Assembly: GCF_000422885.1 (NCBI RefSeq)
Contig: NZ_AUGX01000011.1
Coordinates: forward strand, 186,001 to 250,000
DNA length: 64,000 nucleotides
Source of the DNA: Ottowia thiooxydans DSM 14619
GTDB lineage: Bacteria; Pseudomonadota; Gammaproteobacteria; Burkholderiales; Burkholderiaceae_C
Direction: 5' to 3'
Shown here: one piece after another, positions 16,874 to 28,132 of the stretch
How positions within the stretch are numbered: the first letter of the stretch is position 1
How the letters are laid out: the number at the start of each line of letters is the position of its first letter
Translations under genes and position numbers: made by a program
The notes under the pieces: model-generated
The model's input: the letters and a program-made list of their open reading frames with translations, nothing else
What the model was told of the DNA's origin: nothing
Database searches by the model: none

Positions 16874-17644
16874 TCAGGCTTGTAGCCGCAGAGGTTCCTG
16901 GCCCATGGCCGCCACCCCGCGCACCACATCTCCAATCACCATCACGGAAGGGCTGCCCAGCCCCTCTCTGACGATGGTGGCGTGCAACTCGCCCAAGGTA
17001 GTGACCGCATGGCGTTGCTGCGGCAAGCTGGCATGTTGGATGATGACTGCGGGTGTTGAGGCCGGCAGGCCTTGCAGCAAATTGGCCTGAATGTGGGCCG
17101 CGCCACGTACACCCATGTAGATCACCAATGTGAGTTTGCCGTCACGCGCTGTGGTCGCAATTTGATGCCAATCCGTGGTGTCTCTACCCGGTTTGGCGTG
17201 GCCTGTCAGGAAGATCACACCATGCGCGTGGTCACGATGGGTGAGTGGAGCGTCCAGCGCAGTGATTCCGGCTAGGCCCGCCGTGATGCCGTTGATCACC
17301 TGAACGTTTACTCCCGCAGCGCGAAGGTGCTCCATTTCCTCGCCGCCACGGCCAAAGATGAAGGGATCACCCCCTTTCAGGCGCACTACCTGCTCGCCTT
17401 CCGACACAGCTTGCAGCATCAGTTTTTCAATGAAGGCTTGCGGAGTGCTCGTGCATCCGCCCCGTTTGCCCACATGCACTACACGTGCGGTCGGTGAAGC
17501 GTAGGCCACGATGGCATCGCTCACCAAATCATCTACGAAGAGCACCGTGGCCGACTGAATAGCCTTGAACGCCTTGATGGTGAGCAATTCCGGGTCGCCT
17601 GGGCCAGCGCCCACAAGAGTGCAGGTTCCTGAAGATTTAGTCAT
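16874..17644 (-). CDS. cobA: Uroporphyrinogen-III C-methyltransferase (SUMT)
   Basis: 256 residues. Uses two S-adenosylmethionines to convert uroporphyrinogen III to precorrin-2, the first step to siroheme. Family motifs: VGAGPGDPELLT near the N-terminus, VRLKGGDPFIFGRGGEE, and the ALDAPLTHRDHAHGVIFLTGH segment. It is a single-domain enzyme without the CysG dehydrogenase/chelatase part. As the last gene of nirB-nirD-nasA-cobA it supplies siroheme for the NirB nitrite reductase. The gap to nasA is 51 bp. Confidence 0.95.
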   Translation of the reverse strand: MTKSSGTCTLVGAGPGDPELLTIKAFKAIQSATVLFVDDLVSDAIVAYASPTARVVHVGKRGGCTSTPQAFIEKLMLQAVSEGEQVVRLKGGDPFIFGRGGEEMEHLRAAGVNVQVINGITAGLAGITALDAPLTHRDHAHGVIFLTGHAKPGRDTTDWHQIATTARDGKLTLVIYMGVRGAAHIQANLLQGLPASTPAVIIQHASLPQQRHAVTTLGELHATIVREGLGSPSVMVIGDVVRGVAAMGQEPLRLQA

Positions 17645-17695: not shown

Positions 17696-20491
17696 CTATA
17701 TTGTTGCGCTTTGTTTAGCACTTTTAGTTATAAGTTGTTTTAAGGCTGGAACGCATGAGCCGCAATTGGTGCCGCAACGCAGTTGAGCTTGCAGTTGTTG
17801 CAGGCGAGCCGTGTCATCGCCTTCAATCTGGGAGAGCGCTGAAGTGATGGCGGGTTCATCCACGTTGAAGCAGGTACAGATTTGTTTTCCTCGCGAAGCC
17901 ATGGCTGCCGGTAGTTGATTCCCGGGCATGAGCAAAAGGCGCCCATACGTTTGCGCAGGCAGGCTTTCCTTGAGCAGAGTCGTGAGCCATGAGCCTGCGC
18001 TTGCGTCGCCTGCCAGCAGTAAGGCTTCCAAGGAGGCGCTTTTGCCCTGCCATGCAAGACGTACAGAACGGCTTTGCTGGCGGCGTTTGTCGGCGTACCG
18101 GAGCACCTCTGGGCCTGATAGGCCGAGCAAGGCTTCGATGCGCTGCACCAGTGCGGCGTCCGGTGCCTCATAAGCGGCCGCGCGCAGCAGCACACCATGA
18201 CGTGCCTGGTGGGCATCTTCTAAAGTGGTTTGGCTGGAAAACGGCACACAGGATGCAAAGTCAAATTGCGACATCAAGGCCGCCATCGCTTCGCGCGTGG
18301 CTTGAGCCTCCGGCAGCCACGCCATGCCTAGCAATGTCCAGGGAAGCTCAGCCTTGAGTAACTTGACGGACGTGTGCTTGAACTCAGGCTGTTTGGACTG
18401 AGGGCAAAACGCGGGCGTGGTGAGCGTGTTGACGCCTGCCAAACGCTCGCCGATGGACGATTTTCCTGAGAGATATTCGCCACCCCAGTGCATAGCCATG
18501 AACACCTGAGATAACGCCAAGCCCTCGTCGGCTTGCACAGGTGCAATGATGGCGCCACGCCGGTTGGTGATATGAACGAGATCGCCTTCGCTCAGTGCAC
18601 GGCGCGCCATGTCCTGGGGGTGCATTTGCAGGCAGGGCTCGGGCACGTGGCCAAACAGGCGGCCTATTTGGCCGGTGCGACTCATGCCGTGCCACTGATC
18701 GCGCAGGCGACCTGTGGTCAGACTGAAGGGGTGGCGGGCATCGCGGGGCTCGGCCACGGGTTGCCAGGGCAGGGCGCTGAAGCGTGCGCGGCCGTCAGGA
18801 GTGGGAAATTGGCCGTCTTCGTAGAGGCGGGCGAGGCCTGTGGGCGAACCCTCTTTTAGTGGCCATTGTTGAGGACCGCTTTCGTCCAGCATGGCCCATG
18901 AGAGTCCCGTGATGTCCAGATCGCGCCCACGGGTGGATTCGCGGTGTTCGCCCCAGATTTGCTCGGCATGTTCGTAAGGAAATAGGGTGGGGCGACCGGG
19001 GTGCAACAGCTTTTCAAGCCGCTGCGCGAACTGCATGGCGATCAGCCAATCATGCCGGGTGTCGCCTGGTGGCGGCACTGCAGGGCGAACGCGAGAAATG
19101 CGGCGTTCGCTATTGGTCACGGTGCCTTCCTTTTCTCCCCAGGTCGTGGCGGGCAGCAAGAGATCGGCAAAGGCGCAGGTGGCTGTGGTGGCGAAGGCCT
19201 CCTGTACTACGACGAACTCTGCTCGCTCCAGCGCACGGCGAACCATGGACTGATTAGGAAGGCTTTGAGCCGGGTTGGTGCAAGCAATCCACAATGCTTT
19301 GATTTCCCCGTCGGCGGCAGCCTGGAACATTTCCACTGCAGTCTTCCCGGGTTGAGCTGGCACTGACTCCAGGCCCCATAGCGCGGCGACTTCAGCGCGA
19401 TGTGTTGGACTGCTCAAGTCGCGATGAGCCGAGAGCAGATTGGCCAGGCCACCTACTTCTCGTCCGCCCATCGCATTGGGTTGCCCGGTGAGAGAGAAGG
19501 GGCCAGCACCTGGCTTGCCGATCTGGCCGGTGGCCAGATGGAGGTTGATGAGCGCGGCATTCTTGGCGGTGCCATTGACGCTTTGATTCAGGCCTTGGCA
19601 ATACAAGCTTAAGGTGGGCCCCGACTGCGCGAACCACTGTGCGGCCTGACGGATATCTTCCTTGCGCAAGCCACAGATCTGGGCCGTGTGCTCGGGGGTA
19701 GCCTCGCGTACCAAGGCCTTGAGTTCAGGAAAGCCTGTCGTGTGGCGGTCTATATATTCGGTGTTGACCCAACCTTCCCAAAGCATGGTGTGCAGCATGC
19801 CGTGAAACAGCATCACGTCCGTGCCTGGCTGCAGGGGCAGAAACAAATCGGCCATCGCCGCAGTTTCAGTGCGCCGGGGGTCAGCCACGATCACCTTCAT
19901 TGCGGGGTTGGCCGCGCGTGCTTCCTCGATACGGCGGAAAAGCACGGGGTGGGCCCACGCCGTGTTGCTGCCTGCGAAGAACAAGCAACCTGCGTGGTTC
20001 ACATCGTCGTAGCAGGTGGGTGGGGCGTCGGCACCAAGTGTGAGTTTGTAGCCCGCCACCGCGCTGCTCATGCACAGGCGGGAGTTGGTGTCGATGTTAT
20101 TAGTACCTACCAATCCCTTCGCGAGTTTGTTGAAGACATAGTAGTCTTCGGTGAGCAATTGCCCGCTCACGTAGAAGCCCACGGCATCCGGGCCGTGCTG
20201 CGTGATGATGTGGGCGAACCGGTCGGCAGCCATGTTCAAGGCGCTGTCCCATTCCACAGCTTCTGGCGATGCGCCTCGATGCGAGCGCTGTTGCGGACGC
20301 AGCAGACGAGTCTGCGCCCTTAGCGCGTCTGTCGCCGTAAGGTGCAGCGTGCTTCCTTTGGAGCACAGCCTTCCGAAGTTGGCGGGGTGCTCCGGATCTC
20401 CGCGGACATCGGTGATGCGCGTGCCCTCTGTCTTTATGAGCACGCCGCAGCCCACGCCGCAATAAGGACAGGTGGATCGCGTTTCTGCCAT
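17696..20491 (-). CDS. nasA: Assimilatory nitrate reductase catalytic subunit with C-terminal [2Fe-2S] domain
   Basis: 931-residue cytoplasmic molybdoenzyme reducing nitrate to nitrite. The N-terminal [4Fe-4S] motif is CPYCGVGC plus a fourth Cys in GRLCSKG; no Tat signal is present, as expected for the assimilatory enzyme. The Mo-bisMGD domains follow, and the last 70 residues form a BFD-like [2Fe-2S] domain (CTCFNVDEPAI and LRCGTNCGSCVPALK), as in Klebsiella NasA. It begins four bases after nirD and is probably translated with it. Electrons likely come from an NADH reductase encoded elsewhere, since no separate NasC-like gene is present here. Confidence 0.96.
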   Translation of the reverse strand: MAETRSTCPYCGVGCGVLIKTEGTRITDVRGDPEHPANFGRLCSKGSTLHLTATDALRAQTRLLRPQQRSHRGASPEAVEWDSALNMAADRFAHIITQHGPDAVGFYVSGQLLTEDYYVFNKLAKGLVGTNNIDTNSRLCMSSAVAGYKLTLGADAPPTCYDDVNHAGCLFFAGSNTAWAHPVLFRRIEEARAANPAMKVIVADPRRTETAAMADLFLPLQPGTDVMLFHGMLHTMLWEGWVNTEYIDRHTTGFPELKALVREATPEHTAQICGLRKEDIRQAAQWFAQSGPTLSLYCQGLNQSVNGTAKNAALINLHLATGQIGKPGAGPFSLTGQPNAMGGREVGGLANLLSAHRDLSSPTHRAEVAALWGLESVPAQPGKTAVEMFQAAADGEIKALWIACTNPAQSLPNQSMVRRALERAEFVVVQEAFATTATCAFADLLLPATTWGEKEGTVTNSERRISRVRPAVPPPGDTRHDWLIAMQFAQRLEKLLHPGRPTLFPYEHAEQIWGEHRESTRGRDLDITGLSWAMLDESGPQQWPLKEGSPTGLARLYEDGQFPTPDGRARFSALPWQPVAEPRDARHPFSLTTGRLRDQWHGMSRTGQIGRLFGHVPEPCLQMHPQDMARRALSEGDLVHITNRRGAIIAPVQADEGLALSQVFMAMHWGGEYLSGKSSIGERLAGVNTLTTPAFCPQSKQPEFKHTSVKLLKAELPWTLLGMAWLPEAQATREAMAALMSQFDFASCVPFSSQTTLEDAHQARHGVLLRAAAYEAPDAALVQRIEALLGLSGPEVLRYADKRRQQSRSVRLAWQGKSASLEALLLAGDASAGSWLTTLLKESLPAQTYGRLLLMPGNQLPAAMASRGKQICTCFNVDEPAITSALSQIEGDDTARLQQLQAQLRCGTNCGSCVPALKQLITKSAKQSATI

Positions 20492-20495
20492 GACT

Positions 20496-20879
20496 TTAGG
20501 AGTGGCAAGAATGGCGGCAGGGCCCTGCCGTTGGGCGGGAAAGGTCGGTCGCGTGATGCTCTAGTTCATCTGCATCCAGAAAAACTTCACCATCTTCCAC
20601 CTTCACTGAAAAGCAAGGTGTGGAGCCTTCGTCGGGAGCTGTGGCGTGGCCGTCCACCAGTTGGATGGTCCAGTTATGCAAGGGGCAGGCCACGCTGGTG
20701 CCGAACACAAGCCCTTGTGACAGCGGGCCCCCCTTGTGCGGGCAGCGATCGAGCAGCGCGTGGATGGTCCCGGCGCTGGTTCGAAACAAGGCCACATCAA
20801 GGCCGCGCTCGCGTGCGACGCGGCGAGCACCGAGTTCGGGAATCTCATCAGTGCGGCAAATAGAAGTCCATTTGGTCAT
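20496..20879 (-). CDS. nirD: Nitrite reductase (NADH) small subunit, Rieske-like
   Basis: 127 residues with a Rieske-type fold and intact cluster ligands (CPHKGG and CPLHNW), as in the subset of NirD proteins that keep the [2Fe-2S] site. Partner of NirB in reducing nitrite to ammonium. It lies three bases after nirB and four before nasA, so the operon is tightly packed. The last 20 residues, rich in His and Ser, go beyond the domain core. Confidence 0.95.
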   Translation of the reverse strand: MTKWTSICRTDEIPELGARRVARERGLDVALFRTSAGTIHALLDRCPHKGGPLSQGLVFGTSVACPLHNWTIQLVDGHATAPDEGSTPCFSVKVEDGEVFLDADELEHHATDLSRPTAGPCRHSCHS

Positions 20880-20882
20880 GAC

Positions 20883-23360
20883 TTAAGCCTCTTGCGCCAC
20901 GGTGGGCGTAGTGATGGGGGCTGCAATGGGTACGAACTGGCGTTGGTCCACGCCTGCCTTGTCGAACTCAAACCAGGGATCGGGCTCACCATCCAGCGCG
21001 TATTGCAACTGGGCCCACATGGCTTTGCGGCCTTCAGCGTCTTCGAGAATGCGCCGCTTCACATAATCCATGCCCACGCGGTTCACGTAGTGCACGGTGC
21101 GCTCCAGGTACCAAGCCTCCAGCCGATAAAGCTGCATGAACGCGCCTGTGTATTCAAGTACCTCCTCCGCCGTTTTCAGCTTGACGAAGAACTGACCCAC
21201 TTCGGTCTTGATGCCGCCGTTGCCGGCGATGTGCATTTCCCAGCCGCTGTCTACGCCTATTACGCCAACGTCCTTGATGCCGCTTTCGGCGCAATTGCGT
21301 GGGCAACCACTGACAGCGAACTTCACTTTGTGCGGCGCATTCATGCCGACGAAAGCGTGCTCAAGGTCCTTGCCCAGTTGCGTGCTGTCCTGTGTTCCCA
21401 TGCGGCACCACTCGCTGCCCACGCAGGTCTTCACCGTGCGGAGGGCTTTGGCGTAAGCATGGCCACTGGGCATGCCAATGTCGCGCCATACGGCTTGCAG
21501 GTCTTCCTTCTTCACCCCCAGCAGGTCGATACGTTGGCCGCCGGTCACTTTGACGGTGGGGATTTTGTATTTGTCTACCGCGTCGGCAATGCGCCTGAGT
21601 TCAGATGCCGTGGTTTCCCCGCCCCACATGCGAGGCACCACGCTATAGGTACCGTCTTTCTGGATGTTGGCGTGGCTGCGTTCATTGATCAGACGGCTTT
21701 GCGGATCATCCTTGGCTTCCTTGGGCCAAGTGCTGAGCAGGTAGTAGTTCAGGGCAGGGCGGCAGGTGGCGCAGCCATTGGGTGTACGCCATTCCATGAA
21801 GTGCTGGACCTGCGCCACGGTGAGCAGATGGTTCTTGGTAATGGCCTCGCGTATCGCCTGATGCCCATGTTCAGTGCAGCCACATATAGGTTTGGTTTTT
21901 GGCGTTGTCGAGAAATCACCGCCCGCAGTGAACATGATGATCTGTTCGACCAAGCCTGTGCAGGAGCCGCAGCTGGCACTGGCCTTGGTGTGTTTGCGCA
22001 CCTCGTCGAGCGTGAACAGGCCTTTTTCCTTGATGGCCTTGCAGATCGCGCCTTTGGTCACGCCATTGCATCCGCAGACTTCATCGCTGTCTTGCATGGC
22101 GGCTGCCTTGCTGTGGCCTTCATGTCCGGCGTCGCCAATATTGGATTCCCCGAACATGAGTTTGTCTCGAATGTCCTTGACGGCTCGGCCTTCGCGCAGG
22201 AGCTTGAAGTACCAGCCTCCATCCACCGTGTCGCCATACAGGCATGCACCTACCAGCTTGTCGTCCTTGAGGACGAGCTTCTTGTAGACGCCTGCAAAAG
22301 GATCGCTGAGCACAATCTCTTCTGTGTCCGCGCCGCCTTGGAAGTTTCCCGCGCTGAACAGGTCGATGCCTGTGACCTTGAGTTTGGTGGAGGTCAATGA
22401 GCCTTGATAGCGCCCTATACCGAACTCAGCCAGGTGGTTGGCGAGCACTTTGCCTTGCTCGAACAATGGGGCAACCAAGCCGTAGGCAATGCCTCGGTGT
22501 GCGGCACATTCGCCCACCGCATAGATACGAGCGTCGGTGGTGGTTTGCAAGGTGTCACTCACCACGATGCCGCGGTTGACGTGCAGGTGCATTTTTTCGG
22601 CTAACGCAGTGTTCGGGCGTATGCCCACCGCCATCACCACCAACTGAGCGGGTACCTCGCTGCCGTCTTTGAACTTCACTGCCCGAACACGGCCTATTTT
22701 TCCGTTGTCCTCCTCGCCCAGAAGCTCCTGTGTTTGCGCATTCATGAGGAATTGCATCCCCCGCTCAACCAGCGATTTCTGCAGCAGCCTTCCGGCCACA
22801 TCATCCAGTTGGCGCTCCATTAGCCATTCGCCGGCATGCACCACGGTGACTTTCATGCCGCGCTTCATCAGCCCGTTGGCAGCCTCCAACCCCAACAACC
22901 CGCCACCTATGACGACCGCGTCCTTGTATTTGGCTGCCGCATCGATCATGGCTTGCGTATCTGCGATATCGCGGTAGGCCAGCACACCGTCCAGGTCCTT
23001 GCCGGGAATTGGCAGCATGAAGGGGTTGGAACCTGTGGCGAGAATCAGCCGGTCATACTCCGCGCTGACGCCATTGACGCCATGTACCACGCGTAGTCTG
23101 CGGTCGACCTCAGTCACCATGCTGCCGGTGTGCAGTGTTATCCCGTTCTGCTCGTACCAGGCCCAATCATTGAGTACGATTTCTTCCAAGGTCTGCTCGC
23201 CCGCTAGAACGGGAGACAGAAGAATGCGGTTGTAGTTGGGATGAGGCTCCGCACCGAACACGGTGATGTCATATAAATCTGGTGCGATCTTGAGCAGCTC
23301 TTCCAGCGTGCGTACGCCGGCCATGCCGTTGCCTACCATGACGAGTCTGGGTTTTTTCAT
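20883..23360 (-). CDS. nirB: Nitrite reductase (NADH) large subunit
   Basis: 825-residue siroheme enzyme reducing nitrite to ammonium with NADH. Domains in order: FAD/NAD(P)-binding reductase (VGNGMAGVRTLEEL at the start, VVIGGGLLGLEAANGL about 150), two BFD-like [2Fe-2S] segments (CGCNGVTKGAIC, SCGSC, then a second set CGCTEHG/CATC), and the siroheme/[4Fe-4S] domain with TCVGSEWC and GCPRNC. The ATG at 23360 was chosen because AAGGAG lies seven bases upstream; a frame-extending start seven codons earlier has no such site. Expression is governed by a sigma-54 promoter and a terminator-containing leader at 23385-23498. Confidence 0.96.
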   Translation of the reverse strand: MKKPRLVMVGNGMAGVRTLEELLKIAPDLYDITVFGAEPHPNYNRILLSPVLAGEQTLEEIVLNDWAWYEQNGITLHTGSMVTEVDRRLRVVHGVNGVSAEYDRLILATGSNPFMLPIPGKDLDGVLAYRDIADTQAMIDAAAKYKDAVVIGGGLLGLEAANGLMKRGMKVTVVHAGEWLMERQLDDVAGRLLQKSLVERGMQFLMNAQTQELLGEEDNGKIGRVRAVKFKDGSEVPAQLVVMAVGIRPNTALAEKMHLHVNRGIVVSDTLQTTTDARIYAVGECAAHRGIAYGLVAPLFEQGKVLANHLAEFGIGRYQGSLTSTKLKVTGIDLFSAGNFQGGADTEEIVLSDPFAGVYKKLVLKDDKLVGACLYGDTVDGGWYFKLLREGRAVKDIRDKLMFGESNIGDAGHEGHSKAAAMQDSDEVCGCNGVTKGAICKAIKEKGLFTLDEVRKHTKASASCGSCTGLVEQIIMFTAGGDFSTTPKTKPICGCTEHGHQAIREAITKNHLLTVAQVQHFMEWRTPNGCATCRPALNYYLLSTWPKEAKDDPQSRLINERSHANIQKDGTYSVVPRMWGGETTASELRRIADAVDKYKIPTVKVTGGQRIDLLGVKKEDLQAVWRDIGMPSGHAYAKALRTVKTCVGSEWCRMGTQDSTQLGKDLEHAFVGMNAPHKVKFAVSGCPRNCAESGIKDVGVIGVDSGWEMHIAGNGGIKTEVGQFFVKLKTAEEVLEYTGAFMQLYRLEAWYLERTVHYVNRVGMDYVKRRILEDAEGRKAMWAQLQYALDGEPDPWFEFDKAGVDQRQFVPIAAPITTPTVAQEA

Positions 23361-23384
23361 CGTGGACTCCTTTTGATTCAACGC

Positions 23385-23437
23385 AAAAAGGCGTCTTCAT
23401 GCTGCGTGGCTTTGCCAACGCTCATGAAAGACGCCTT
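23385..23437 (-). terminator. Intrinsic terminator in the nirB leader
   Basis: Read on the minus strand, AAAGGCGTCTTTCATG pairs with CATGAAGACGCCTTT through a nearly perfect stem. An inner stem (GCGT/ACGC with GGC/GCC) closes on AAA, and the hairpin is followed by a T run ending at 23385. It lies between the sigma-54 start and the nirB ribosome binding site, so it must be read through for nirB expression. Confidence 0.85.
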
Positions 23438-23442
23438 TGTCT

Positions 23443-23468
23443 GGTGCGCCGCGCCTTTGCGCCGCACC
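23443..23468 (-). promoter_or_regulatory. NasR-type antiterminator hairpin, nirB leader
   Basis: A ten-base-pair stem with one G-G mismatch carries the hexaloop AAAGGC, with A at loop position 1 and G at position 4, the pattern bound by ANTAR-domain proteins. It starts about four bases after the predicted transcription start and ends just before the terminator hairpin. A second ANTAR hairpin was not found upstream, because the start site leaves no room. Confidence 0.72.
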
Positions 23469-23481
23469 CGTGCCATGGATT

Positions 23482-23498
23482 AAGCAATCAACGTGCCA
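23482..23498 (-). promoter_or_regulatory. Sigma-54 promoter of nirBD-nasA-cobA
   Basis: TGGCACGTTGATTGCTT on the minus strand matches TGGCACG-N4-TTGCW exactly, with GG and GC ten bases apart (-24/-12). The predicted start is near 23472, directly before the antiterminator hairpin. Confidence 0.85.
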
Positions 23499-23506
23499 AG
23501 CATTGC

Positions 23507-23521
23507 GCACTGGGTTGGTGC
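23507..23521. promoter_or_regulatory. NtrC-like site near the nirB promoter
   Basis: On the minus strand GCACC-AACCC-AGTGC matches the NtrC site GCACC-N5-GGTGC with one mismatch. It lies only ten bases upstream of the -24 element, closer than most NtrC enhancers, so it may be a secondary or regulatory site. Confidence 0.45.
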
Positions 23522-23556
23522 GTTTTCCCTCGGCACGGGAATTGCACAGAGAAGTC

Positions 23557-24732
23557 ATGACCTCCGCTCTGCATTTCCTTCAGCTCGCTCGTCAGTGCGA
23601 AATCACTGAACTGGAATTGCTTCAGCGCACCAGTGCACTCGTCGACACACTCGGGCGCTTGATCCATGCGCTGCAAAAAGAACGCGGTCTGAGCACGGTT
23701 TACCTGACGGGCCGCGCCGCGCCGACCGAACTGGCCGCTCAGATCAAGGAGTGCGAACAGTTGGCCGATACGGCTCGAGCGGGCTTTGACGATTTGTCTA
23801 GTCCGGCGCAAGGGGCTCGTCTTTTTAGTCGCATTGCCTATGTGCTCCAAGGATTGGATGCACTGCCGGCGTTGCGTGAGCGCATTCAGGCACGCCAGAA
23901 GACGCCCGAGACCTCAGCGGCAGCTCTCACCAAGCTGGTGACGGGTTTGCTGGCCGTGGTGTTTGAGGCCGCTGACGGTGCCGCCGACCCGAATATCTCC
24001 CGTTTGCTCGTGGCTCTGTTTCACTTCATGCAGGGAAAGGAGCTCGCGGGACAGGAGCGCGCAGCTGGCGTAGCGGCGTTTGGTGCGGGCAGTGAACAGC
24101 GTCAGCAGAATTGGTTGCATCTGATTGAGGCTCAGGAACGGTGTTTTCAGGTTTTTGCTGAGTTCGCACCACCCACGTTGTTGCCCCAGTGGCGTGCAGA
24201 GGACGCCGCACTGGAGCGCTTGCGCAGAGTTGGGTGTACTTCCGCTGCCAATAACGAGTCTGGCGCCGATCTTCGCCAGACTTGGTTTGATGTGGCCACA
24301 TCCCGGATGGACGCGCTTCATGCCATTGAAACCCAACTCGCAGCCGAAGTGCTGTACCAATGTGAATGCCGGATCGCTGAAGCGCGCCAGCCTCTGCCAG
24401 TGGCCGACGCCAATGCGGACTTCTTCGATAGTTTTCCTGCACCAGCCGCCAGTCTGGGACCGCAGTTGAACCGCTCGGTGCTGGAATTGGTCCAGGATCA
24501 ATCGCAGCGCCTGCAAGCCATGCAAGCCGAGTTGGAAACTACGCGTGCGGCGCTTCAAGAGCGCAAGTTGGTGGAGCGCGCCAAGGGCTTGTTGATGGCG
24601 AGGCGGCAATTTAGCGAGGGTGAGGCGCATAAGCTCCTTCGCCAGACGGCCATGAACCAAGGGCGCAAATTGTCTGAGGTAGCTGAGGCCGTTCTAGCCA
24701 TGGCTGATCTGCTGCCTCCTGCACCGCATTGA
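23557..24732 (+). CDS. nasR: Nitrate/nitrite-responsive antiterminator (NIT domain plus ANTAR domain)
   Basis: 391 residues. The N-terminal part (about 25-290) is the helical NIT sensor, recognised by HALQKERGLSTVYL and the conserved Arg-rich helices. The C-terminal 65 residues (ERKLVERAKGLLMARRQFSEGEAHKLLRQTAMNQGRKLSEVAEAVL) are an ANTAR RNA-binding domain. In Klebsiella NasR, nitrate or nitrite binding lets ANTAR bind a leader hairpin and prevent termination. The ATG at 23557 is preceded by AGAGAAG and begins where the sequence becomes NasR-like. It is divergent from nirB and upstream of nrtA; both have matching leaders. Soluble and cytoplasmic. Confidence 0.93.
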   Translation: MTSALHFLQLARQCEITELELLQRTSALVDTLGRLIHALQKERGLSTVYLTGRAAPTELAAQIKECEQLADTARAGFDDLSSPAQGARLFSRIAYVLQGLDALPALRERIQARQKTPETSAAALTKLVTGLLAVVFEAADGAADPNISRLLVALFHFMQGKELAGQERAAGVAAFGAGSEQRQQNWLHLIEAQERCFQVFAEFAPPTLLPQWRAEDAALERLRRVGCTSAANNESGADLRQTWFDVATSRMDALHAIETQLAAEVLYQCECRIAEARQPLPVADANADFFDSFPAPAASLGPQLNRSVLELVQDQSQRLQAMQAELETTRAALQERKLVERAKGLLMARRQFSEGEAHKLLRQTAMNQGRKLSEVAEAVLAMADLLPPAPH

Positions 24733-24968: not shown

Positions 24969-24984
24969 TGGCACGCTTCATGCG
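24969..24984 (+). promoter_or_regulatory. Sigma-54 promoter of nrtABD
   Basis: TGGCACGCTTCATGCG has the invariant GG (24970-24971) and GC (24982-24983) ten bases apart and the full TGGCACG -24 element. The predicted start is near 24995, giving a leader of about 116 bases before the nrtA ATG. Confidence 0.82.
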
Positions 24985-25002
24985 TTCACCTCAGGCAGCA
25001 AA

Positions 25003-25024
25003 GTCCCTCCAATGGCGGCGGGGC
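25003..25024 (+). promoter_or_regulatory. NasR-type antiterminator hairpin, nrtA leader
   Basis: GTCCCTCC pairs with GGCGGGGC (one T-C mismatch, one G-T pair) around the hexaloop AATGGC, with A at position 1 and G at position 4. The loop resembles AAAGGC of the nirB leader, and both stems have a mismatch three or four pairs from the loop. The hairpin starts about eight bases after the predicted transcription start. Confidence 0.75.
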
Positions 25025-25036
25025 GTTAGCAGACAA

Positions 25037-25092
25037 CGGTGTCCTCCTCTACGCCCACTCGTGGGTAGAGGCCGGACGCCGTTTTTGTTTTT
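25037..25092 (+). terminator. Intrinsic terminator in the nrtA leader
   Basis: CGGTGTCC pairs with GGACGCCG, CCTCTA with TAGAGG and CCCAC with GTGGG, followed by TTTTTGTTTTT (25082-25092). It ends 18 bases before the nrtA ATG and just before its ribosome binding site, so by default it would stop the transcript before the transporter genes. Confidence 0.88.
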
Positions 25093-25110: not shown

Positions 25111-26334
25111 ATGTCGCCCTCTACCGTTCAACGTCGCGATTTCCTTACCCTCGCTGCTGGTGCAGCATTCAGCGTTAGTGGAGGAGCTTGGGCCGCAGGG
25201 TCAGACAAGCCTGAAAAAGAGGAGGTGAAGATAGGCTTTATTCCTCTCACCGATTGCGCGAGCGTGGTCATGGCCTCCGTGCTGGGCCTGGACAAAAAGT
25301 ACGGCGTGAAGATTGTGCTCAGCAAGGAAGCCAGTTGGGCCGGCGTGCGCGACAAGCTGGTCAACGGTGAGCTGGATATGGCCCATGTGCTCTATGGGCT
25401 GATCTATGGCGTGCACCTGGGTGTGAGTGGCCCCAAGAAAGACATGGCCGTGCTCATGGGCTTGAATCACAACGGGCAGGCCATTACGCTCTCGAAGACG
25501 TTGGCCGACAAAGGCGCGGTTGATGGCCCTTCGCTCGCAGCGCTCATGGCCAAGGAAAAGCGTGAATACACATTCGCGGGTACGTTCCCCACCGGCACGC
25601 ACGCCATGTGGATGCACTACTGGTTGGCTGCCGCAGGCATAAACCCTTTGAGCGGCGCCAAGCTCATCACTGTACCGCCTCCACAAATGGTGGCGAACAT
25701 GCGTGTGGGCAATATGGACGGCTTTTGCGTCGGTGAGCCATGGAACCAACGCGCCATCATGGATGGCATAGGTATCACGGCCAACACCACGCAGGAGATC
25801 TGGAAAGATCATCCTGAGAAGGTCTTGGGCACCTCGGCGGATTTCATGAAGAAGTATCCCAACACCACGCGCGCCGTGATGATGGCCGTGATCGAGGCTG
25901 GGCAATGGATTGATGCCAGTCTTTCCAACAAGATGAAGATGGCCGAGACCATTGCAGGCAAAGCGTATGTGAACACCAGCGTGGACGCGATCAACCAGCG
26001 CATCTTGGGCCGTTACCAAAACGGTCGTGGCAAGAGCTGGGACGACGCGAATCACATGAAGTTCTTCAACGACGGCTTGGTGAATTTCCCATTCCTCTCA
26101 GACGGTATGTGGTTCCTTACTCAGCACAAACGGTGGGGCCTGCTTAAGCAGCACCCTGACTACCTGGCTGTCGCCAAGCAGGTGAACCAGATCGACCTGT
26201 ACCGCTCCGTGGCCAGCGCCATGAAGATAAGCGTGCCCAAAGATGTCATGCGCACCAGCAAGCTCATCGACGGCGTGGTGTGGGATGGCAAAGATCCAGC
26301 CAAATATGCAGACGGCTTCAAGATCAAGGCGTGA
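25111..26334 (+). CDS. nrtA: Nitrate ABC transporter substrate-binding protein
   Basis: 407-residue NrtA/NasF/CmpA-family protein binding nitrate (possibly nitrite). The N-terminus has a Tat-type signal (QRRDFLTLAAGAAF) with likely cleavage after AWA, so it is exported folded. Family segments include VKIGFIPLTDCASVVMASVLG, GTFPTGTHAMWMHYWLAAAGI and the FCVGEPWNQRAI segment. The ATG at 25111 has GAAGGAG upstream. First gene of the transport operon and target of the terminator leader. A bicarbonate or cyanate role, known for relatives, is unlikely given the neighbours. Confidence 0.94.
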   Translation: MSPSTVQRRDFLTLAAGAAFSVSGGAWAAGSDKPEKEEVKIGFIPLTDCASVVMASVLGLDKKYGVKIVLSKEASWAGVRDKLVNGELDMAHVLYGLIYGVHLGVSGPKKDMAVLMGLNHNGQAITLSKTLADKGAVDGPSLAALMAKEKREYTFAGTFPTGTHAMWMHYWLAAAGINPLSGAKLITVPPPQMVANMRVGNMDGFCVGEPWNQRAIMDGIGITANTTQEIWKDHPEKVLGTSADFMKKYPNTTRAVMMAVIEAGQWIDASLSNKMKMAETIAGKAYVNTSVDAINQRILGRYQNGRGKSWDDANHMKFFNDGLVNFPFLSDGMWFLTQHKRWGLLKQHPDYLAVAKQVNQIDLYRSVASAMKISVPKDVMRTSKLIDGVVWDGKDPAKYADGFKIKA

Positions 26335-26336
26335 CC

Positions 26337-27332
26337 ATGAATACCAGCGAACTCATTCCAGCTTTTCAAAGCACACATACGCCGAACGGGCAAGCCGCGT
26401 CTTCACATGCAGGCCTTGCGGTTTCCCATCCCTCGTCAGCGGGAGCATCACAAGCACCCCTTCTGGATACGCAGCCTGCCCCCATCCCAGCCGTCCCCTA
26501 TGCCGGGCGCCCCCAGAAGGAGACAGTCAGAGGGCGGCGCCTGGGCGCTTTGGTGGGGTCGCTGGTTTCTGCTGTGCTGCCACCGGCCTGTGGCCTGGGT
26601 TTGCTTGTATTGATTTGGGCCATCGTTTCATCTGCCACAGGCAATACCGTGCCGGGGCCTGTGGAGACGTGGCACCAGGCGGTGGAGGTGTTCCGAGATC
26701 CGTTCTATCACAACGGACCCAACGACCAAGGCGTGGGCTGGAACGTGCTGGCTTCGCTTCAGCGGGTGGCGATAGGCTTTGGACTGGCGGCCTTGGTGGG
26801 CATTCCCGCAGGTTTCGTCATCGGCAGGTTTGACTTCCTTTCTCGTATGTTCAACCCACTGATCAGCCTGCTCCGGCCCGTATCGCCGTTGGCTTGGTTG
26901 CCCATTGGTTTGTTGGTCTTCAAAGGGGCGAACCCGGCAGCCATCTGGACCATTTTTATCTGCTCTATCTGGCCCATGATCATCAACACCGCCGTGGGCG
27001 TACAGCGTGTGCCGCAGGATTACATGAACGTGGCGCGTGTGCTGAACTTAAGCGAATGGAAAATCGCCACCACCGTTCTGTTTCCGGCGGTCTTGCCCTA
27101 TATGCTGACCGGCGTGCGGCTGGCTGTGGGCACTGCATGGTTGGTCATCGTGGCTGCCGAGATGCTCACGGGGGGCGTGGGCATCGGCTTCTGGGTATGG
27201 GACGAGTGGAACAACCTGAATGTGAAGAACATCATTGTGGCCATTTTCGTGATTGGCATTGTGGGCTTGGTGCTGGAGATGGCGCTGGTCAAGATAGCCA
27301 CCGCGTTTACTTTCGAAGAGGTGAAATCATGA
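26337..27332 (+). CDS. nrtB: Nitrate ABC transporter permease
   Basis: 331 residues. After an unusually long N-terminal extension of about 70 residues rich in Ser, Ala and Pro come five or six membrane helices of the SsuC/NrtB type. The family loop EWKIATTVLFPAVLPYMLTG holds the conserved EAA-like coupling segment. The ATG at 26337 lies two bases after the nrtA stop. The homodimer forms the channel of the nitrate importer. Confidence 0.93.
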   Translation: MNTSELIPAFQSTHTPNGQAASSHAGLAVSHPSSAGASQAPLLDTQPAPIPAVPYAGRPQKETVRGRRLGALVGSLVSAVLPPACGLGLLVLIWAIVSSATGNTVPGPVETWHQAVEVFRDPFYHNGPNDQGVGWNVLASLQRVAIGFGLAALVGIPAGFVIGRFDFLSRMFNPLISLLRPVSPLAWLPIGLLVFKGANPAAIWTIFICSIWPMIINTAVGVQRVPQDYMNVARVLNLSEWKIATTVLFPAVLPYMLTGVRLAVGTAWLVIVAAEMLTGGVGIGFWVWDEWNNLNVKNIIVAIFVIGIVGLVLEMALVKIATAFTFEEVKS

Positions 27333-28132
27333 GCGATGCCAAGTTCATTGAAGTCCAAGGCGTAGAACAAACGTTCAAGACCGCCAAGGGTTTGTTCCCT
27401 GCGCTGCGCGACATTGATCTGAATATTGCCAAAGGCGAATTCGTGGCGCTCATTGGTCACTCGGGTTGCGGCAAGAGCACGTTGCTGAACTTGATCGCAG
27501 GCCTGACCACTCCAACGGCGGGAGTGCTTCTTTGTGGCAACAAGGAAATCAATGGCCCTGGTCCTGAGCGGGCCGTTGTGTTTCAGAACCATTCGCTGCT
27601 GCCTTGGCTGACCTGCGAAGGCAATGTCTACCTGGCGGTAGAGCGGGTATTTGGCGCCAAGGAAAGCAAAGCGCGCTTGAAAGAGCGCACCGCCGCAGCC
27701 CTGGACATGGTGGGCCTGAGTCACGCCGCACACAAGCGCCCTGGTGAGATATCTGGCGGGATGAAGCAGCGCGTGGGCATTGCGCGTGCGTTGTCGATGG
27801 AGCCTCAGGTGCTGTTGATGGACGAACCCTTTGGTGCACTTGATGCACTGACGCGCGCCAAGCTGCAGGACGAACTACTGGAGATCGTCGCTCGTACGCG
27901 AAGCACCGTCGTCATGGTGACCCACGATGTGGACGAGGCGGTGCTCTTGTCAGACAAGATCGTGATGATGACCAATGGCCCCGCCGCGACAATTGGCGAA
28001 GTCCTGCGTGTCGACATCGAGCGTCCGCGCAAGCGCGTGGCGCTGGCTGAAGATCCGCGCTATCTGCAAGCGCGTAAGGCGGTGATTGATTTTCTCTACA
28101 CGCGGCAGGGGCATGTGGAGAGGGTTGCTTGA
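27329..28132 (+). CDS. nrtD: Nitrate ABC transporter ATP-binding protein
   Basis: 267 residues. Walker A GHSGCGKST, Q-loop VFQNHSLLPWLTCEGN, signature SGGMKQRVGIARAL, Walker B VLLMDEPFGALD and switch His in VTHDVDEAV are all present. This is the SsuB/NrtD/TauB class. Its ATG overlaps the permease stop by four bases (ATGA). Only one ATPase gene is present, so it presumably works as a homodimer, unlike cyanobacterial NrtC/NrtD pairs. An inverted repeat follows at 28153-28185. Confidence 0.93.
   Translation: MSDAKFIEVQGVEQTFKTAKGLFPALRDIDLNIAKGEFVALIGHSGCGKSTLLNLIAGLTTPTAGVLLCGNKEINGPGPERAVVFQNHSLLPWLTCEGNVYLAVERVFGAKESKARLKERTAAALDMVGLSHAAHKRPGEISGGMKQRVGIARALSMEPQVLLMDEPFGALDALTRAKLQDELLEIVARTRSTVVMVTHDVDEAVLLSDKIVMMTNGPAATIGEVLRVDIERPRKRVALAEDPRYLQARKAVIDFLYTRQGHVERVA

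Follow-up and report, generated by a model that had tools for sequence, protein, structure and literature searches.

Probable two-hexaloop ANTAR leaders behind sigma-54 elements precede the nirB and nrtA operons at a nitrate assimilation locus of Ottowia thiooxydans

The nasF operon of Klebsiella oxytoca has a sigma-54/NtrC promoter. Its leader is governed by NasR, a NIT-ANTAR protein, and, in the published sections available, shares with the locus described here two hexaloop hairpins with A at loop position 1 and G at loop position 4 (A1/G4), a C:G loop-closing pair, and the placement of the second hairpin (P2) in the base of the terminator (PMC3369931, PMC7496416). In Pseudomonas, a review, as far as its available text goes, combines sigma-54/NtrC initiation with NasT antitermination at the nirBD leader, and the NalA leader (nirBD-PA1779-cobA) resembles the present one in operon type, sigma-54/NtrC start and ANTAR antitermination within the leader (PMC12830290). 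NalA differs in its antiterminator, which is NasT, freed by NasS, whereas the present locus uses the one-component NasR. The eut leaders of Enterococcus faecalis, which are read by EutV, likewise carry P1 and P2 hexaloops with competition between P2 and the terminator, but the protein there is a two-component REC-ANTAR protein and the signal is ethanolamine. We know of no sigma-54 element in the eut leaders. In the portion of the eutP description available, the loop-to-loop distance is 24 nt (A29 to A53), compared with 20 nt for nirB and 24 nt for nrtA in the DNA analyzed here.

The window, that is, the whole 64,000-nucleotide stretch that was analyzed, differs from nasF in having two leaders for two divergent operons (nirBD-nasA-cobA and nrtABC), a P1-P2 linker of zero nucleotides in the nirB leader, and a nasR gene that is itself probably sigma-54 driven. 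By analogy, the nirB leader is a known kind of switch, expected to work like Klebsiella nasF and Pseudomonas NalA. It is a canonical two-hexaloop ANTAR antiterminator, a previously overlooked P2 included, and its parts are as follows (hexaloops in single square brackets).

23484-23498, minus strand: sigma-54 -24/-12 element of the nirB operon, TGGCACGTTGATTGC (TGGCACG-TTGA-TTGC), an exact consensus match
23472, minus strand: predicted nirB transcription start, 12 nt past the C of the -12 GC, deduced from spacing
23443-23468, minus strand: P1 hairpin, GGTGCGGCGC[AAAGGC]GCGGCGCACC, with an A1/G4 loop, a C-G closing pair and an internal G.G mismatch (folding and pattern)
23429-23442, minus strand: P2 hairpin, AGAC[AAAGGC]GTCT, A1/G4, its loop identical to that of P1 (pattern and folds of truncated transcripts)
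23385-23438, minus strand: intrinsic terminator, 5′ arm AAAGGCGTCTTT, 3′ arm GAAGACGCCTTTTT, ending in TTTTT (folding and pattern)
23358-23374, minus strand: Shine-Dalgarno sequence AAAAGGAG and the nirB ATG (ATG at 23358-23360), from the sequence

The nirB element carries the GG-N10-GC arrangement of -24/-12 promoters as an exact consensus, and RpoN is encoded in the genome. The start of a sigma-54 promoter is deduced from a spacing rule relative to the -12 GC, which places +1 at 23472 and leaves 4 nt ahead of P1. The first-pass annotation had proposed a sigma-54 promoter, a hairpin, a terminator, AAAAGGAG and the nirB ATG within a single leader, with a start about four bases ahead of the AAAGGC hairpin; all of these are present on the minus strand, and the predicted start agrees with that spacing.

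The same annotation had found room for a single hexaloop before the terminator and set this apart from the two-hairpin motif. P1 and P2 are tandem hexaloops with A1 and G4, both AAAGGC, and the P2 loop and 3′ arm form part of the 5′ arm of the terminator, the overlap being 23429-23438. Because the P2 hexaloop overlaps the base of the terminator, the leader is canonical and the supposed exception to the two-hexaloop ANTAR rule is removed. This is the arrangement given for eut, amiE and nasF, where, in the sections available, a second mini-hairpin is formed at the 5′ base of the terminator (PMC3369931). A one-hairpin ANTAR variant would lack a second hexaloop, whereas P2 at 23429-23442 is one.

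Folding predictions place P2 and the terminator in competition. In the predicted structures of transcripts cut at 44, 47 or 54 nt, both P1 and P2 form, while the complete leader favors the terminator (-49.1 kcal/mol, versus -41.0 kcal/mol with P2 forced), and by their overlap and predicted energies P2 and the terminator are mutually exclusive. The 95-nt leader, at -49.1 kcal/mol, has a z score of -4.86, with none of 200 dinucleotide shuffles equally stable, and the combination of P1, P2 and an overlapping terminator arose in 2 of 1,000 dinucleotide shuffles of the sequence behind the promoter. An unconstrained perfect-stem scan renders the nirB P1 of the window as a shifted AAAG tetraloop; energy folding tolerates the G.G mismatch and yields the hexaloop. 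It could be argued that P1 alone is recognized and that the terminator is controlled without P2, given that the minimal ANTAR binding unit is a single hexaloop in the available text of PMC8934654 and that the nirB P2 stem is merely 4 bp. We consider this extremely unlikely: at 23429-23442 there is a perfect P2 whose loop is identical to that of P1 and which folds in truncated transcripts, a P2 is present in all 46 leaders collected below (though the scan demanded one), and the same text requires the dimer to touch each hexaloop individually in order to stop termination (PMC8934654).

The nirB element is the only perfect sigma-54 match in the window. Allowing up to one mismatch gave five matches where 2.8 were expected, and a lone near-match is unremarkable since 17 of 100 shuffles also reach five. 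Three of the five lie in a single 1.5-kb island, that of the nirB leader. Besides the second hairpin, the earlier reading had overlooked a whole leader at nrtA, a sigma-54-like element at nasR and an NtrC-like palindrome. The leader at nrtA, with its sigma-54 element, occupies 24969-25086 on the plus strand and has the same anatomy as the nirB leader.

24969-24983, plus strand: sigma-54 element of the nrt operon, TGGCACGCTTCATGC, a pattern match
25003-25024, plus strand: P1 of the nrtA leader, hexaloop AATGGC (pattern)
25032-25043, plus strand: P2 of the nrtA leader, GAC[AACGGT]GTC (pattern)
25035-25086, plus strand: terminator of the nrtA leader, overlapping P2 (pattern)

Here the terminator is again predicted to be favored (-45.8 kcal/mol, versus -30.0 kcal/mol with P2 forced), and P1, P2 and terminator were found together in none of 1,000 shuffles. 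Truncated nrtA transcripts fold less cleanly than those of nirB: the P2 loop contains an A-U pair, and at 65 nt P1 adopts a different fold; forcing P2 is predicted to displace P1 as well, and the unconstrained perfect-stem scan does not draw the nrtA P1 in its hexaloop form. The two leaders precede the following genes.

20883-23360, minus strand: nirB, nitrite reductase large subunit (TIGR02374 above cut-off)
20496-20879, minus strand: nirD, nitrite reductase small subunit (TIGR02378 above cut-off)
17696-20491, minus strand: nasA-type molybdopterin nitrate reductase with a C-terminal BFD [2Fe-2S] domain (Pfam; named partly by context)
16874-17644, minus strand: cobA, uroporphyrinogen-III C-methyltransferase, for siroheme supply (TIGR01469 above cut-off)
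25111-28132, plus strand: nrtABC-type nitrate ABC transporter (nrtA, 25111-26334; permease, 26340-27332, and ATPase, 27329-28132, as searched)

The NCBIfam NasA/NasC models match the product of 17696-20491, though below cut-off. Among the transporter genes, ntrB (TIGR01183) and ntrCD (TIGR01184) matched above cut-off; the sole match of nrtA was to Pfam NMT1_2, and its name is taken from context.

Between the two leaders lies nasR, together with two further candidate elements.

23557-24732, plus strand: nasR, NIT-ANTAR nitrate-responsive antiterminator (PF08376 and PF03861; the sole ANTAR match of the genome)
23531-23545, plus strand: sigma-54-like element of nasR, CGGCACGGGAATTGC, 11 nt ahead of the nasR ATG (pattern)
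23507-23521, no strand assigned: NtrC-like palindrome, GCACTGGGTTGGTGC, a consensus match only, between the two divergent sigma-54 elements

The identification of nasR as a NIT-ANTAR gene that is divergent from and adjacent to nirB, made earlier from the letters, is borne out by its position and by the Pfam matches PF08376 and PF03861. Residues 9 to 385 of the product align to the structure of Klebsiella NasR (4akk) with an E value of 3.7e-43, and the stretches ERG, FMQGKELAGQER and LRR are common to the two. The nirB leader thus adjoins the gene for its cognate NIT-ANTAR protein. From the sigma-54-like element, nasR transcription is expected to begin at the A of its own ATG, 23557. Among 36 loci scanned for nasR promoters (locus L012 was left out, having too little upstream sequence), 23 have GGCAY-N5-YTGC no more than 150 nt ahead of nasR, the expectation being 0.015 per locus; by the expected start, five of these 23 (the window and four others) would have a nasR leader of 0 to 3 nt. 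These patterns suggest that nasR is probably itself driven from a sigma-54 promoter. A spacing of 11 to 14 nt between the element and the nasR ATG was also seen in L005, L011, L027 and L038.

Palindromes were scored against the NtrC binding consensus. The palindrome at about 23507-23521 matches it at 10 of 12 positions, and its center is 17 to 18 bp from the -24 GG of both divergent elements, which is unusually close for an enhancer site. Among the loci described below, 12 of 14 nirB leaders have a site scoring at least 10 of 12, as do 13 of 33 nrtA promoters; the background rate is 0.29 per kb. For 11 of the 14 leaders at nirB, the best NtrC-like site was 49 to 85 bp upstream. Close sites besides that of the window occur in L022 (16 bp) and L005 (about 15 bp).

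Taken together with the known systems, the locus very probably works as a canonical two-step gate, in which NtrC and sigma-54 govern initiation and NasR then governs antitermination. Under low nitrogen, NtrC would activate sigma-54 polymerase at 23484-23498 on the minus strand, and the resulting transcript would begin about 4 nt ahead of P1. With NasR free of nitrate or nitrite, the terminator, as the more stable structure, would displace the nascent P2, and transcription would yield no more than a short leader RNA. Nitrate-bound NasR would recognize both A1/G4 hexaloops, P1 first and P2 next; with P2 held by NasR, the terminator could not form and nirBD-nasA-cobA would be transcribed. The same gate would stand ahead of nrtABC. 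Nitrogen limitation would then be required for uptake, for reduction and, since nasR probably has a sigma-54 promoter, for the sensor-antiterminator too, and nitrate would be needed only by the two structural operons. Sequence and comparison document which parts the gate has, how these overlap, and that they are conserved and specific within the genome; we infer NtrC as the activator, binding by NasR and the response to nitrate. Comparison with Klebsiella nasF backs the sigma-54/NtrC and NasR gate behind the first-pass claim that nitrate reduction needs both low nitrogen and nitrate or nitrite, but the proposed gate extends beyond reduction, with a further copy ahead of nrtABC. A Comamonadaceae-type genome appears to use a two-input gate twice within one island, for uptake and for reduction.

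The window was compared with 36 NasR loci taken from other genomes, most of them Comamonadaceae, with a Thauera bin, Halomonas-type and Zobellella loci in addition. The region before nrtA could be examined in 33 loci and that before nirB in 18, the window included, while L029, L030, L037 and L039 have neither gene. A leader was present before nrtA in 32 of the 33 and, with its sigma-54 element, before nirB in 14 of the 18 (window included). The locus scan found no leader before nirB in L013, L015, L017 and L038; in L015 and L017, nirB lies closely behind nrtC. L015 was scored as the nrtA miss, yet P1- and P2-like hairpins are visible there by eye. The sigma-54 pattern occurs 161 times in 588,892 bases when both strands are counted. 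A leader accompanied 46 of these sites, all at nirB or nrtA, and none of the other 115; this count is a control at limits that were loosened after the sequences had been inspected, and a stricter initial scan had found a sigma-54 leader in 11 of the 37 loci.

The A1/G4 loops of these leaders are not independent evidence because the leader scan demanded them. The C-G loop-closing pair is present in 46 of 46 P1 and 46 of 46 P2 hairpins, rows that include close relatives; it was demanded of P2 in the 161-match control, not in the locus scan. The P1 stem pairs vary with pairing preserved among the 46 leaders (close relatives included), the third pair outward, for example, being TA in 11, GT in 9, GC in 8, CG in 6, AT in 6 and TG in 5, with 1 mismatch. 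For this stem comparison nine P1 positions were assigned manually, because in most long nirB leaders the script had mistaken the 5′ hairpin for P1; that of L007 needed no change. As sequence evidence, we regard the closing pair and the P1 stem variation as more telling than the A1/G4 loops. The consensus from in vitro selection with NasR, in the available text, comprises a C:G closing pair, A at position 1 and G at position 4 (PMC7496416).

The nirB gene is divergent from nasR in just two of the 18 loci that have it, the window and L005, and codirectional with nasR, downstream of nrtABC, in the remaining 16. A recent copying of the nrtA gate to nirB, when nirBD-nasA-cobA was flipped beside nasR, would fit this rarity but is very unlikely, in that codirectional genomes (Delftia, Comamonas) already have nirB leaders and the P2 loops start with AAAG in 14 of 14 nirB leaders and with AACG in the nrtA leaders of the same 14 genomes. 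Overall, nrtA P2 loops start with AACG in 27 of 32 leaders, the exceptions being L009, L010, L012 and L021, in which the locus has no nirB, and L013, in which nirB has no leader. Since the P2 loops of the two genes differ consistently and codirectional nirB leaders exist, the simplest reading of the sequences would have the nirB operon taking its own leader along when it moved.

The 7.05-Mb genome (78 contigs) has one ANTAR match, one RpoN and, above cut-off, one NtrC. A genome-wide search for a sigma-54 element with a P2 gave two matches, at nirB and nrtA, and its reversed control gave none; no further NasR target was found in the genome with this pattern, which would pass over a target whose P2 or promoter is built in another way. 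Among 399 genomes of the order, the pattern matched in 84 and its reversed control in 38, assessed by eye, and because of this control a good part of the 84 may be chance.

Searches with Rfam gave no match at the gathering level in the window. In a lenient search, the nirB leader matched RF03032 (narK RNA) with 34.1 bits (E = 3.3e-4), short of the gathering score of 43.2, and RF00625 (P11) with 29.3 bits (E = 4.8e-4), short of 70. The nrtA leader matched more weakly (20.2 bits, E = 0.58; 18.7 bits, E = 0.25) and was not picked up by RF03032 genome-wide at an E value of 1 or less. Two weaker RF03032 matches in the same genome, L003 (23.2 bits) and L004 (19.5 bits), were leaderless by the scan. 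The consensus lines of both families hold a sigma-54 element and a P2 hexaloop sequence, like the window, which scores below both gathering cut-offs: RF03032, as printed, has the sigma-54 element first, then an AACGGC hexaloop hairpin, and last an undrawn CGAC[AAAGAC]GUCG, while RF00625 has a sigma-54 element, GGAC[AAAGGC]GUCC and a terminator.

Using RF03032 against 150 genomes of the order, matches with an E value of 0.01 or less were found in 24, the genome of the window included, one of them over the gathering score. An ANTAR gene was present in 23 of these 24 genomes, compared with 50 of the 126 others (Fisher p = 1.3e-7), and an ANTAR domain lay no more than 10 kb away from 21 of the 24 matches and no more than 600 nt away from 14. 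A complete leader of sigma-54 element, P1, P2 and terminator was present in 19 of the 20 loci examined among these 24 RF03032 matches (18 of the 19 loci L041 to L059, and the window); the sole exception was L052, and L041, the match above the gathering score, has the leader. Because 19 of 20 examined match loci contain it, RF03032 'narK RNA' is probably an ANTAR leader with promoter DNA built into the model. No mention of narK RNA, the narK motif or RF03032 was found in a literature search that was thin in subscription papers, hence weak.

By its consensus line, P11 looks like a sigma-54 promoter with an ANTAR leader. Presumably P11 is NalA. The name 'NalA' was not found in the main text, as available, of PMC10977744 or PMC12080996. 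The available text treats P11 as a regulatory sRNA of a nitrogen assimilation operon that includes NirB and NirD (PMC12080996). The terminator at nirB might, on this model, be constitutive, or part of a riboregulator free of ANTAR control, with the short terminated RNA as its product, and the 29.3-bit match to an Rfam sRNA family agrees with this. We judge it highly improbable: the match is below the gathering score of 70, and the leader co-occurs with nasR and, within NasR loci, is confined to nrt and nir operons. As far as the available sources go, P11, an sRNA of Pseudomonas, is the reported driver of inherited pathogen avoidance in Caenorhabditis elegans, a finding whose reproducibility is debated. 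If P11 is an attenuated leader, its level should follow the supply of nitrogen and nitrate, a possible source of condition dependence. Judged by title, none of the matches listed in a search for P11 with ANTAR and C. elegans, which mostly excluded subscription papers, was on this subject.

An extra 5′ hairpin at the start site was seen by eye in 16 of the 46 leaders (11 nirB and 5 nrtA). Nine of these can be read as A1/G4 hexaloops, all in nirB leaders (L006, L008, L014, L016, L018, L019, L022, L025 and L026), although in L006, L014 and L016 the hexaloop requires the innermost A-U pair to be open. The other seven have GCAA tetraloops, GAAGCA, or A1 without G4 (L007). These extra hairpins may be plain 5′ stabilizers. 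A bolder reading, which we offer tentatively and think doubtful, has three-hexaloop (P0-P1-P2) nirB leaders in several Comamonadaceae, with P0 as an additional landing pad for NasR at the start, the window leader as a compacted descendant without P0, and nasR, in the window and four loci, transcribed leaderless or nearly so from sigma-54. Three-hexaloop leaders went unmentioned in what the literature search returned, a weak result given how few subscription papers it covered. The nirB P1 hairpins of six Comamonas loci (L014, L016, L018, L019, L025 and L026) have a G.G mismatch immediately next to the C-G pair that closes the loop; the G.G mismatch in the P1 of the window lies further out. A second TGGCAC is located inside P1 in the nirB leaders of the window and L005.
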